DNA from: Burkholderiaceae bacterium
GTDB taxonomy: Bacteria; Pseudomonadota; Gammaproteobacteria; Burkholderiales; Burkholderiaceae_C
NCBI GenBank assembly: GCA_031285125.1
Contig: JAITWT010000124.1
Span: 1-37,945, forward strand
Length of the DNA stretch: 37,945 bases
Direction of reading: 5' to 3'
A model generated the notes under the pieces. It worked only from the letters and a program-made list of their open reading frames with translations, made no database searches and was not told where the DNA came from. Of this stretch, positions 3,055 to 37,934 are shown in pieces. Position 1 is the first letter of the stretch. Every line of letters starts with the position of its first letter. A program made the position numbers and the translations under genes.

Positions 3055-3582
3055 TTACTCCGCCCGCATAGAGCACTTGAGGAAATCGCTTATTTGCTTA
3101 TCGGTGCATCGCAAGGCGAGCGCCAAGTCTTCATTGACGTAACCGAACTGGCGCTTGATCACCCGAAACGGATGTTCCACCTTGGCACGCACACGGGCCT
3201 TCAAGCGCTCAACCTGGTCGATCAGCGCACCCAGTTCTGTGCTCTTGTTCAACGCCTTGCGCGAACTTGGCCCGCGCGCGATATGCCAGGTCACGCCGGG
3301 TTTGGCGTCTTCGCGCTTGTGGGCGCCGCGATACCCGGAGTCGGCAAAGACCGTCTCCTCTTGACCGTGCAGCAGGGCGTTGGCCGCCACCACGTCGTTG
3401 ACGTTGGCCGCCGTAGCACGCACCGTATGCACCAGGCCAGATTGAGCGTCCACGCCAATGTGGGCCTTCATGCCGAAGTACCACTGATGGCCCTTCTTGG
3501 TCTGGTGCATCTGGGGGGCGCGTTGGCCCGACTTGTTCTTGGTCGGCCTCGCCGCCGAGATCAAGGTGGCATTGACGGCCTA
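3055..3582 (-). pseudogene. IS5-like transposase, C-terminal fragment
   Basis: ...VNATLISAARPTKNKSGQRAPQMHQTKKGHQWYFGMKAHIGVDAQSGLVHTVRATAANVNDV...VEHPFRVIKRQFGYV: DDE IS5-family pattern; N-terminal part absent, frame closed by TAG upstream of VNATLIS. Confidence 0.8.
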
Positions 3583-5088: not shown

Positions 5089-7163
<2,075 letters not shown>

Positions 7164-7290: not shown

Positions 7291-7434
7291 CGCGTCCACG
7301 GCAAAGCCGCAAACCGCAGCCGTAGTCAAGCGCCATGACCCCATGTATACAACGCAACGCCGCCCGCTTGCGTGCGCAAGCGTGATTTCATGGTCCAAAA
7401 TTCAAGAGACACAAGAGACAGGACACCCCCGCAC

Positions 7435-7932
7435 GTGACTCGTATCGATTTCCACTTCAACGTCACCGACAAGGTGCATCACGTCTGCCGCCTGGTGCGT
7501 AAAGCGTTACACACAAGCACAGACGGTCAGACCCGGATGCTGATATTGGCCGATACGCCGGATCTGGATCGCATCGATGCTGCGCTTTGGCAAACGGCCC
7601 CCAGTGATTTTCTGGCCCACTGCCGCAGTGATGCCCCGGCCGCTGTGCGTGCGCGCTCGCCAGTCATTCTTGCGCCGCGTGCCGATGCCGATCTGCCGCC
7701 GTGTGACATCCTCGTGCACCTGGGCTGCTCCGGCGCTTCGGTGCCCGCAGGCTTCGAGCGTTTCATGCGCTTGTTCGAACTGGTTGGACGGGATCAAACC
7801 GACCGCGCCCCAGCGCGCGCGCGTTGGCGCCACTACAGCCGGCGCGGCTATGCAATCAGCCAAGTCGACCTGGCCGCGCCCCAGGCCGGGCCGTCTGGTC
7901 AAGCCGGTGCACCTGCAGGGGAATCGACGTGA
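7435..7932 (+). CDS. holC: DNA polymerase III subunit chi
   Basis: VTRIDFHFNVTDKVHHVCRLVRKAL...LADTPDLDRIDAALWQTAPSDFLAHC... typical HolC; GTG start proposed. Confidence 0.85.
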   Translation: MTRIDFHFNVTDKVHHVCRLVRKALHTSTDGQTRMLILADTPDLDRIDAALWQTAPSDFLAHCRSDAPAAVRARSPVILAPRADADLPPCDILVHLGCSGASVPAGFERFMRLFELVGRDQTDRAPARARWRHYSRRGYAISQVDLAAPQAGPSGQAGAPAGEST

Positions 7933-8411
7933 GCGCAACGCCCCCCCGCACACCGCCGAACGTCGTCCCGACCCTCACCGAGGTGGTTGATATAACACAA
8001 TATGATTCCGGCAATTCGGTACAGTCCTCTGCGCAATTGCAGCGCCTGCCCACGCTGACTGAAGTCGTCGATTCAACTCAAATCAACCCCCGTACTCCCG
8101 CCCCCCCCCTGGCAGCCCCGCCCACGCCGCCACCGCCTGCCCCGCCTTCTAATTCCCTACCCCCGCAGAGCGTTTTGACCTCGGCCTTGTGGCAGGAGCA
8201 AGTTGCCCGAATTCAGGAGGAGCTTGCGCGGCGCATTTTGCAACGCATTGATTTTCAGATTGATACGCAACTCAAGACGGCCATCCTGGCGGCCGTACAG
8301 CGTCAGATCGATGCAATGGCGCCAGAACTTTGCACTGAAATTGAAGCCGTTTTGCGTAATCTGATCGCACAGGCGTTAGAACGACAGCCGCCTGGAAAGT
8401 CAGAAAAATAG
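7929..8411 (+). CDS. DUF2486-like protein downstream of holC
   Basis: VSATPPRTPPNVVPTLTEVVDITQ...LPTLTEVVDSTQ...; proline-rich linker and C-terminal helical region; overlaps holC stop. Confidence 0.65.
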   Translation: MSATPPRTPPNVVPTLTEVVDITQYDSGNSVQSSAQLQRLPTLTEVVDSTQINPRTPAPPLAAPPTPPPPAPPSNSLPPQSVLTSALWQEQVARIQEELARRILQRIDFQIDTQLKTAILAAVQRQIDAMAPELCTEIEAVLRNLIAQALERQPPGKSEK

Positions 8412-34106: not shown

Positions 34107-34252
34107 TTAGGGCCTGTTCACACTATTTCCGCAGTCGCGTTGTGCACCCGAAGGGAAGGGCGGCATTGGCCCGCCCTTGGGCGTTACGCTCCTTGCATGG
34201 GCAGGCCAATACTGCCCTTCGCGACTGTGGAAATAGTGTGAACAGGCCCTAA
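34107..34252. repeat. Short TIR element E8 (C-type ends)
   Basis: TTAGGGCCTGTTCACACTATTTCCGCAGTCGCG at left; inverted copy at right with one mismatch over 33 bp; stem AAGGGCGG/CCGCCCTT. Confidence 0.9.
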
Positions 34253-34391: not shown

Positions 34392-34691
34392 TCACTGAAC
34401 GACCGTCTCGCTTACCGCTTTCAATCTGACTGAGAACGGCTTGCTGAGGCCCGCGGCGGCCGCGAGAGCATCCTGAGTCATCCCACGATATTCCCGCCAT
34501 GCGCGCACCGCATGCGCCTCGTCCGCAATGACGTAAGCCACCGGTGCAGGAAAGCCGTTGGCCACGGCCTGGTCATAGAGCCCCTCATCCTCGATGCCCT
34601 CCTCCTTGCCACGAGCTTTGTGCCACACAGACGCGGGCACCCCGTAGAACACAGGCTTTCCGCCTGGCTCGATCACTTGTGCTTGGCTCAT
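34392..34691 (-). pseudogene. XRE-family antitoxin, frameshifted in the HTH
   Basis: AVRAWREYRGMTQDALAAAAGLSKP then a frame change; the alternative frame continues LSQIESGKRDG. Confidence 0.75.
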
Positions 34692-34819
34692 TTGTAAATA
34701 CCGCCTCTCGCACCAATCTCCAGCACGAGAATGTCCCGCCGCCCGGAATCCGGCGTTTAGATCACGCGCCAATCGCCGATATGAAGCCGATCGTCCGGGC
34801 GACGCGCCCACTTCTTGAC
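34688..34819 (-). pseudogene. RelE/ParE-superfamily toxin remnant
   Basis: Minus-strand translation VKKWARRPDDRLHIGDWRVI*TPDSGRRDILVLEIGARGGIYK*, internal stop, N-terminus missing; stop overlaps the antitoxin ATG. Confidence 0.75.
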
Positions 34820-35242
34820 ATTCGCCGCGTCTGCTCACGGCACAGCTCAAGACCCTATTTGTGCTGAGCACCCTATGGATGGTCAGCACATGCCGGCGAG
34901 CAAAGTACGCCCCAAAGGTGCATGGATCGCCCCAAAAGACCCTGCGAGCGGCTCAAGGGAGCACGCCGCCTGCACGGGTACCGCGCTGGAGTCCGCGGGC
35001 ACAGGAAATTGTCTGCATTCGGGCGCTTCAGTACATCAGCTCACTTGGACGGGATTCGTGAAGAGCATCCCTAACAGGGACGGGAACCGAACTGGCGCGC
35101 GTGAAGATGGAGCACCAAATCCAGGGAACAGTGCGCGAAAACACAACGGCAAAGTACGCCTTCTCCACCGCTACTGCCGGACGTAACAAATTCCGGTGCA
35201 ATGCCGCGCGCAACCCATCAGATCAACTACTATTTTTATTAG

Positions 35243-35270
35243 TTTACACGATTCTAGACCTTGGGATAAT
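35243..35270 (+). promoter_or_regulatory. Candidate sigma70 promoter of the luxI homolog
   Basis: TTTACA (35243-35248), 16-bp spacer, GATAAT (35265-35270), 28 bp upstream of ATG 35299. Confidence 0.45.
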
Positions 35271-35298
35271 AATCTCTTTTTACAATGGATGCGAATAT

Positions 35299-35851
35299 AT
35301 GCTTTGCATTATTAGCAAAAGAGACGAATTGCTTCCGCGCCTTGCGAAAAACATAGGACATTATAGATACAAGGTATTTGTTAAGCACCTGGGTTGGCCT
35401 CTCCCTTCCTCTGATGAGGTTGAATTAGATGAGTTTGATGGTCCCAACGCAGTCTATGTTTCCTCTCACAATGAAAATGGCCTAATCAATGGAGTTGCAA
35501 GATTACTGCCGACGACTGAACCTTATTTACTTGAAAAAATATTCCCATTTCTATGGGAAAAAACAATTGCCCCATGACAAGGAAATATGGGAATTATCCC
35601 GGTTCGCGGCATTAGATTTAAATGATTGCATGGCGCCATCGCATCAAGCGTCGTCAAAACATGCCGCGCTGTTTTTTCAAAGTGTAGCGCAGATCGCCCG
35701 CAGCCGGGGTGCTCGCATGTTAGTTACCGTATCTCCAGTCAGCATGGAACGTCTGCTCAGGATAAATGGCATTAATGCACAACGCATTGGAAGACCGGTG
35801 AAATATCATCAAACGCCAATTACCTCTCTGGCAATAGAACTTAATTTATAA
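35299..35851 (+). pseudogene. Acyl-homoserine-lactone synthase (LuxI family) interrupted by a one-base frameshift
   Basis: Frame 1 RLAKNIGHYRYKVFVKHLGWPLPSSDEVELDEFDGPNAVYVSSHNENGLINGVARLLPTTEPYLLEKIFPFLWEK; frame 2 LPHDKEIWELSRFAALDLND...AQIARSRGARMLVTVSPVSMERLLRINGINAQRIG. Confidence 0.88.
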
Positions 35852-35918
35852 TCTTTAAAAATAAGACCGCAATAGTACGAATATTATCACAAAAACCAAA
35901 ATATTCATAATCCATTTC

Positions 35919-36560
35919 ATGCACACTTTTTATTTCCAACAGCTTCTTAGCTTAACCTTGATCTATTTGCTTGGCATCATGGCGCCAGGCGCAGATTTTG
36001 CTGTAACGATTCGGCAAAGTTTGAGTTTCGGAAAGCGCACAGGTGTAATTACGGTAATCGGGATTGGATCTGGTATTTCTGTGCATGTGTTTTATACACT
36101 GATCGGTGTTGGCGTACTTTTGCGCACTCAGCCTACGCTATTTTCCATCGTAAAGGTTATTAGCGCAGCATATATGCTCTATCTAGGCGTGAAGTTCATT
36201 CGGAGCCAACCTAAAATAAGCGGCTTAAATACAACCGCCATCAATCAAAAAATGCACCCCTCGCCGCTACGCTCTTTTATTATTGGTTTTTTGACTAATG
36301 CAACCAACCCAAAAGCAACACTCTTAATTCTAGCAGTGTTCATGACCATCGTTGCAGCAAAGACTCCAATAGAAATCCAGATTATTTACGGGTTATGGAT
36401 GTGTGCGATTGCCATAGGATGGTTCGTTGCCGTAAGCCTGCTATTTTCTTCTCATGCAATCAGGAGAGGATTTTTTAACATTGGACACTGGATAGAGAGA
36501 GGCATGGGCATCTTATTGATTAGTTTCGCCGTAAATCTATTAATCAACAACGTGAAATAA
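35919..36560 (+). CDS. LysE/RhtB-family translocator
   Basis: LIYLLGIMAPGADFAVTIRQSLSFGKRTGVITVIGIGSGISVHVFYTLIGV...GFLTNATNPKATLLILAVF. Confidence 0.93.
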   Translation: MHTFYFQQLLSLTLIYLLGIMAPGADFAVTIRQSLSFGKRTGVITVIGIGSGISVHVFYTLIGVGVLLRTQPTLFSIVKVISAAYMLYLGVKFIRSQPKISGLNTTAINQKMHPSPLRSFIIGFLTNATNPKATLLILAVFMTIVAAKTPIEIQIIYGLWMCAIAIGWFVAVSLLFSSHAIRRGFFNIGHWIERGMGILLISFAVNLLINNVK

Positions 36561-36663
36561 AATTTATAATATTTGATTGGATCGCCATTTCTTTTTTGCT
36601 GGCTTAGCATAAACGTATCGGTATAAACTCAAACCCCAGCAGCATCTCTAATATACAAAACAT

Positions 36664-37377
36664 TTAATTAAGCAGCCCCAGTAATGCGGCGCTCACCACT
36701 GCCGCTGTTTTATTGGGCACTTTCATTTTCACTATACAATTTTTAATATGAAAATCAACCGTGCTTTTTGATAACTTCAGAATATCCGCAATATCTTGCG
36801 CGGATTTTCCATCGGCCGACCACTTCAATATTTCTAACTCCCTGTCCGAAAGAGCAGGAGCGCCTGTTATCGAATTGCGCCGAAGGAGCCGGGAAATTGT
36901 AAAATGAGTTACTTGTACAAGCCAGCGCATTTTTAGTTGTTTAGCATCGAGCTCCCGACGTGTTAAACACTGACAAGACCTGGCGAGCGTGAGCATGCCG
37001 CCGGCACCGAGACCATCCAGACTGGACTGTGCCCAGCCGACTTTTAACCCATGCGCTCTTGCCTCGTTCCAAAGATTTGGGGCCTCTGCAAAGACCTGAT
37101 CTGTCCATAGGATGGGCTCCTGTGATCGGCGTCCATGTATGATGGTTGGATCAATCTGTATATACCCCGCTTGAGCGTAGCGGTCTTTCCAGAATTGAGG
37201 ATAATTATTCAAAAGAATAACTTTCGGTTTACTAAGCGGTAGTAGCGCTTGAAAACCATAGGCTACATACTGAAACTCAAGTGTATTCGCTACATCTTGA
37301 ATGCGTTTGAATATATCGTTCTCGCATGTTGTATTATGCTGCATGATGTCAAGAAGATCTTCTTGCCAATTTTTCAT
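36664..37377 (-). CDS. LuxR-family quorum-sensing regulator (autoinducer-binding domain plus HTH)
   Basis: NNYPQFWKDRYAQAGYIQIDPTIIHGRRSQEPILW (W, Y, DP, W pattern of AHL-binding domains); LSDRELEILKWSADGKSAQDIADILKLSKSTVDFHIKNCIVKMKV. Confidence 0.93.
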   Translation of the reverse strand: MKNWQEDLLDIMQHNTTCENDIFKRIQDVANTLEFQYVAYGFQALLPLSKPKVILLNNYPQFWKDRYAQAGYIQIDPTIIHGRRSQEPILWTDQVFAEAPNLWNEARAHGLKVGWAQSSLDGLGAGGMLTLARSCQCLTRRELDAKQLKMRWLVQVTHFTISRLLRRNSITGAPALSDRELEILKWSADGKSAQDIADILKLSKSTVDFHIKNCIVKMKVPNKTAAVVSAALLGLLN

Positions 37378-37637
37378 GTGATACTCCCAATCTATGTCTC
37401 ACCATTCTTGGCAGCAGTCATCCGGTTAGGGAAGGTCTGCAAAACCTCATTTTTCAAGACGCGTCAGCGCGTAACCTGTTGATTCTATTGGTAGACGCAC
37501 TGCCAAAAATAGATTTTTTCAACCCCTCTATAACGGATAAAGTAAGCGGCGCGCCATAGGTGCGTCCGCTTGGCTGCAATGTTAAGCTCAATCTCAACTG
37601 AGCGCCCTTCTTTTTTCATGATCTTCCAGTGCGCGCA

Positions 37638-37934
37638 AGAGGTTTTTGCGATGTGACGGACAACCTGGACGTGCATCACTGCAAGCCCGTGAAGGCATGG
37701 CTGGCCGAGCACCGACACGATATCGAGGTGTTCTACCTGCCCAGCTACAGCCCCGAACTGAACCCCGATGAGCGGCTAAACGCCGATTTGAAGCACGCCA
37801 TTGGCTCCAAGGTAGCCGTGCGTACAAAAGCCAGATTGCGTGCCGCTGCCGATGAGCACATGCGATTCATCGCAGCCAATTGCCAGCGAGTCCGAAACTA
37901 CTTCCAAGACCCAATCGTCAACTACGCAGCGTGA
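37638..37934 (+). pseudogene. IS630-family transposase, C-terminal fragment
   Basis: VTDNLDVHHCKPVKAWLAEHRHDIEVFYLPSYSPELNPDERLNADLKHAI; upstream catalytic domain absent. Confidence 0.8.

Follow-up and report, generated by a model that had tools for sequence, protein, structure and literature searches.

Introduction

Quorum-sensing (QS) systems of the Pseudomonas PhzI/PhzR kind and of the Burkholderia type have an AHL synthase, a LuxR-type receptor and a lux/phz-like box before luxI. When the genes intervening between luxR and luxI were surveyed, 40 of the 48 single genes were rsaL or rsaM, and LysE was not mentioned (PMC3386692); our own literature search for a LysE between luxI and luxR found no described case in the papers covered. 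In the Limnohabitans type, luxR and luxI are codirectional, with a DUF4902 gene between them where checked and without LysE. A link between an RhtB-type exporter and a quorum signal has been described for PimT of Streptomyces natalensis, which affects homoserine-lactone resistance and the level of the QS inducer (PMC2698837).

The locus described here lies in a window that is one whole contig (C208, 37,945 bp) of a 2.47-Mb genome in 233 contigs. It shares the synthase, the receptor and the box with the PhzI/PhzR and Burkholderia-type systems and differs from them in its convergent luxI-lysE-luxR arrangement, in its frameshifted luxI and in an interval without an RsaM or DUF4902 gene; its gene order and its LysE also set it apart from the Limnohabitans type. 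PimT is comparable to the window's LysE as an RhtB-type exporter linked to a quorum signal, but it comes from an actinomycete with a non-AHL inducer and without LuxI/LuxR (PMC2698837). The circuit is of a known kind and its third gene is unusual.

Results

The luxI-lysE-luxR locus and its borders

Open reading frames and profile matches give the order luxI (+), LysE-family exporter (+) and a convergent luxR (−), with 67 bp between luxI and lysE. The original prediction had described this arrangement (synthase, 67-bp gap, LysE exporter, and convergent luxR with an AHL-binding domain), and the matches to PF00765, PF01810 and PF03472 bear it out. A profile search of the genome found one LuxI, one AHL-type LuxR and three LysE proteins. 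The 2.26-kb stretch that holds the three genes is the GC minimum of the window (0.423 versus a window mean of 0.597). The genes have a GC of 0.41-0.47 and a GC3 of 0.36-0.45, compared to a GC3 of 0.77-0.80 in the flanking genes, so that the stretch is indeed richer in AT than its flanks, as had been noted.

The borders also proved to be as described. On the left lies a decayed toxin-antitoxin remnant (34392-34889, −), composed of an XRE/HipB-like antitoxin fragment (34392-34688, −; a weak match, TIGR03070 2e-4) and, preceding it, a stop-interrupted reading that by eye resembles the end of RelE/ParE. On the right, at the contig end, is the C-terminal fragment of an IS630-family transposase (37629-37934, +; NF033545 4e-20). 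The left border region also holds a short inverted-repeat element (34107-34252, beginning TTAGGGCCTGTTCACACTATTTCC), with arms of 40 nt that are 90% complementary. It is repeated genome-wide: a 156-bp query around it gave 109 matches, mostly partial, on about 30 contigs of the same genome. A further mobile-element remnant, an IS5-family transposase fragment (NF033581), is found at 3055-3564 (−).

The low GC and the mobile-element remnants make a horizontal gain of the stretch plausible but unproven. Of the earlier proposal of such a gain, the AT-rich, IS-bordered setting stands; the gain itself is less clear, as the homologous locus L044 is equally AT-rich (0.40-0.42) within a GC-richer neighbourhood, and the low GC therefore belongs in part to this QS lineage itself. 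The nearest relatives belong to the same broad family, and a housekeeping comparison with AtpG (80% identity to a Variovorax, 77% to the L044 genome and, over a partial sequence, 75% to Verminephrobacter) does not tell descent from transfer. A plasmid origin was rejected, since the DNA search gave no close match and the protein matches were below 60% identity.

A predicted lux box precedes a frameshifted luxI

A 20-bp lux box, AACTACTATTTTTATTAGTT, the predicted LuxR-AHL site, lies at 35225-35244 (+), 74 bp 5′ of the luxI start. This dyad fits the pattern AMCTACTATTTTTAKTAGKT with no mismatch (none expected in shuffles) and, with up to two mismatches to the degenerate pattern allowed, is unique in the genome; no second box was found before luxR or lysE at up to three mismatches. 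The relatives have a palindrome in common upstream of luxI, which reads ACCTACTATTTTTAGTAGGT in L038 and L039. When the 300 bp before luxI were surveyed with five mismatches allowed, a box was present 72-89 bp before the start in 15 of 103 luxI loci, a few of which are duplicates (L011 and L041), compared to 0 of 103 in the reversed control. The window box has three departures from the clade consensus, including one compensated pair, and by hand count it agrees with the phz-box consensus of PMC7048289 at about 15 of 18 positions. The original prediction had missed this box, which strengthens the case for a quorum-sensing module. Exact 16-mers of the box in viral contigs were disregarded as mostly at chance level for so large and AT-rich a collection.

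The box overlaps a promoter-like sequence at 35243-35270 (+), with −35 TTTACA, a spacing of 16, −10 GATAAT and a TG extension (10 of 12 matches). As such scans give 5.4 hits by chance in the region, this call rests on its adjacency to the box. The overlap would place the box centre near −42.5 from the predicted transcription start, which is the spacing in classical luxI promoters, and we infer that LuxR-AHL binds at this predicted site. Since the conserved box and the −35/−10 elements precede luxI, this gene, and probably lysE behind it, would form one AHL-induced unit, lysE being tied to the box through a presumed operon. No terminator-like site was found on the + strand between the two genes; the 67-bp gap and the premature luxI stop could reduce or abolish read-through into lysE.

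luxI is split between two ORFs that overlap and whose frames differ by one base; together they span 35299-35851. The autoinducer synthase domain (PF00765) extends over both halves, in two frames: the 5′ part (35299-35577, +; 5e-9, profile positions 11-81) closes at a premature stop, and the 3′ part (35489-35851, +; 7e-5, profile positions 76-171) is coding from about 35550-35577. The frame switch falls within an A-rich stretch at this same position, and the gene is therefore broken as assembled. A read-through sequence with the frames joined served for searches only. In its numbering, R23, F27, W33, D44, D47, R68, E98, S100 and R101 are invariant in the alignment with relatives, and its best solved-structure relative is the AHL synthase 3p2f/3p2h. 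Because 46 of 47 conserved LuxI columns are kept over both parts, as are all 55 of LuxR, the frameshift arose recently or else is an error. It is only a little short of an even call that it is a sequencing or assembly error and that the cell's quorum-sensing circuit is complete and normal: the site lies within an A-run, a single conserved column is lost, and LuxR and the box are intact, whereas other genes in the neighbourhood are broken as well. A programmed frameshift is not favoured, as by reading the A-run is outside the −1 slippery register and the required shift is of the other kind.

LuxI and LuxR as a predicted cognate pair

luxR (36664-37377, −) is intact and encodes an AHL-binding regulator of the RhlR/SdiA type (237 aa) with autoinducer-binding (PF03472, 4e-31) and GerE (PF00196, 2e-18) domains. 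None of the 55 conserved columns shows a departure, and the nearest solved structures are RhlR, 3szt and SdiA. A LuxR match in phage records, at most 42% identical, was not informative.

A genome scan for luxI returned 80 loci. The maximum-likelihood tree of LuxI places the window sequence in a clade of ten rows (support 100/99) with Verminephrobacter aporrectodeae (L038), a MAG labelled as an alphaproteobacterium (L039), the Burkholderiaceae MAG Pmx449_bin7 (L044) and Limnohabitans-type loci. The LuxR tree gives a matching clade (98/94), and in both trees Verminephrobacter and L044 are among the closest. The identity to Verminephrobacter (L038) is 56% for LuxI and 71% for LuxR, and that to L044 is 50% and 60%. 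The agreement of the two trees marks LuxI and LuxR as cognate partners within a Comamonadaceae-type clade. The Limnohabitans and Verminephrobacter loci (L038, L040-L045 and L179) belong to this LuxI/LuxR clade, and most of them have the same box at the same distance. The L039 contig carries a Comamonadaceae-type LuxI and an identical 20-bp box; its label may be wrong, because its AtpG is 75% identical to that of the window.

The exporter is closer to RhtC than to RhtB

lysE (35919-36560, +) is intact and encodes a 213-aa exporter of the LysE/RhtB superfamily, on an RhtC-like branch, with a full-length translocator domain (PF01810 2.4e-29, positions 2-192 of 193). With the RhtC/RhtB amino-acid exporters it has PF01810 in common, as well as its nearest NCBIfam match, of 135 bits for a cut-off of 184, to the homoserine/threonine subfamily TIGR00949. 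Its NCBIfam scores against RhtC (85.8 bits), RhtB (58.7 bits, cut-off 209) and LeuE (58.5 bits) are all far below the equivalog cut-offs, and its identity to the E. coli proteins is 26% for RhtC and 21% for RhtB. In the tree, RhtB, itself on a long branch, lies on the other side, and the window's LysE falls among generic exporters of its class, together with a paralogue from its own genome (43%). RhtB orthology was thus rejected on the NCBIfam scores and the tree. Since the LysE branch is long (0.9), its substrate is uncertain. The loci of its nearest kin (54% and 51%) contain, named by eye, a LysR-type regulator and an alanyl-tRNA-editing-like gene, among others, and neither luxI nor luxR was found there.

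LysE beside luxI in other genomes

A profile search of 115 luxI loci (1.2 Mb) gave three with a LysE no more than 6 kb from luxI: the window, L117, where it is located outside luxR, and L179. The convergent luxI-lysE-luxR order occurs in the window only, and LysE is absent from the majority of luxI loci in the window's clade. As the window genome's own density (three per 2.47 Mb) predicts about 1.5 by chance, there is no general association of LysE with luxI, and a conserved luxI-LysE(-luxR) cassette was rejected. The original prediction had raised the hypothesis that the exporter carries the signal out of the cell or eases homoserine-lactone stress, and had called for a search of this neighbourhood in related genomes. 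Signal export finds no support in these results: the neighbourhood is not conserved, the exporter clusters among generic amino-acid exporters of the RhtC-like type, and its kin do not lie beside luxI/luxR. What survives is a weaker claim, that the exporter is probably under a QS promoter.

L179 (genome G752, of the same genus as Limnohabitans radicicola) differs from the window in having a 2OG-Fe dioxygenase and LysE behind a duplicated promoter, in the order luxR, DUF4902, truncated dioxygenase, LysE and luxI. It has two copies of the box, one 80 bp in front of the dioxygenase-LysE pair and the other 76 bp in front of luxI, because 255 bp comprising the DUF4902 end, the promoter and the leader have been duplicated with one difference. 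The direct repeat measures 255-267 bp (5596-5862 and 7303-7569; 254 of 255 positions identical over 255 bp) and flanks a 1.44-kb insert with the truncated dioxygenase (PF10014) and an RhtC-like LysE gene. L045, a close sister (LuxI 83%), has a single promoter and lacks the insert, and the L179 LysE is on a different branch from that of the window, with E. coli RhtC. The duplicated promoter, the empty sister and the other LysE branch together imply that a different LysE was recently placed behind the same QS promoter.

Other relatives carry other genes. L044 resembles the window in its order of luxI, a small membrane protein and a convergent luxR, and in its low GC; unlike the window, its middle gene encodes a MAPEG protein (PF01124), and no clear match to the lux box was found. 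Two similar inverted-repeat elements (AAGAACGTGTTCACGATC...; 5701-5880 and 7971-8149) flank the MAPEG gene and luxR in L044. Verminephrobacter differs in having a run of decarboxylase/ketosynthase-like genes behind luxI. This region of L038 (3841-7402) contains pyridoxal-dependent decarboxylase, ketosynthase-like and MaoC-like genes and is a possible QS-linked biosynthetic cluster.

Discussion

We consider it fairly probable that the locus is a known LuxI/LuxR circuit in which LysE is a recruited QS target under the luxI promoter, and not an AHL pump. LuxR with AHL would bind the box at 35225-35244, centred at about −42.5, and activate the luxI promoter; lysE, which follows luxI after 67 bp in the same direction, would be transcribed along with it. 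LysE would then, as an RhtC-like protein, export a small compound of the amino-acid type, so that an amino acid or derivative might be released at high density as the quorum-sensing output. If the luxI frameshift is real, the strain would make no AHL of its own and LuxR would answer only the AHLs of its neighbours. Should the frameshift instead be an error, this explanation would hold in all but its eavesdropping part.

The placement of lysE behind the synthase could also be read as an AHL pump, or as relief from homoserine-lactone stress arising from AHL turnover. E. coli RhtB is annotated as a homoserine/homoserine-lactone exporter, and PimT offers a precedent (PMC2698837). However, the window's LysE is closer to RhtC than to RhtB, its nearest kin are unlinked to luxI, most luxI loci of the clade do without LysE, and L179 took in a LysE of a different branch, which together make such a role very unlikely. 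That lysE stands beside luxI by chance, as a passenger of a decaying region rich in IS elements and repeats, served by a promoter of its own or by none and unrelated to signalling, is unlikely as well, though less so. The three LysE in 115 loci are close to the number that density predicts, luxI is broken, and IS630 and toxin-antitoxin remnants lie at the borders; yet lysE is intact and immediately follows luxI in the same orientation, all three genes share the low GC, and an independent LysE sits behind a duplicated QS promoter in L179. Since that other LysE also lies behind a copy of the box and the luxI promoter, L179 supports the preferred reading of LysE as QS-driven cargo.

A wider reading, which we regard as doubtful, is that the Comamonadaceae-type luxI promoter, together with the luxI-luxR interval, serves as a cargo slot in which single membrane-protein genes have been captured repeatedly, LysE at least twice (in the window and in L179). 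Amino-acid export would thereby become a direct QS output, and an eavesdropping output where luxI is lost. We hold it low because there is one clear case beside the window, which was itself chosen for its LysE.

If the recruitment of LysE as a QS target is correct, a minimal AHL circuit, with one box in 2.47 Mb, would have one exporter as its chief or sole box-linked output, and the metabolite released on quorum would become a directly testable question. L179, with its fresh promoter duplication and the empty site of its sister, would then be a snapshot of a gene joining a QS regulon.
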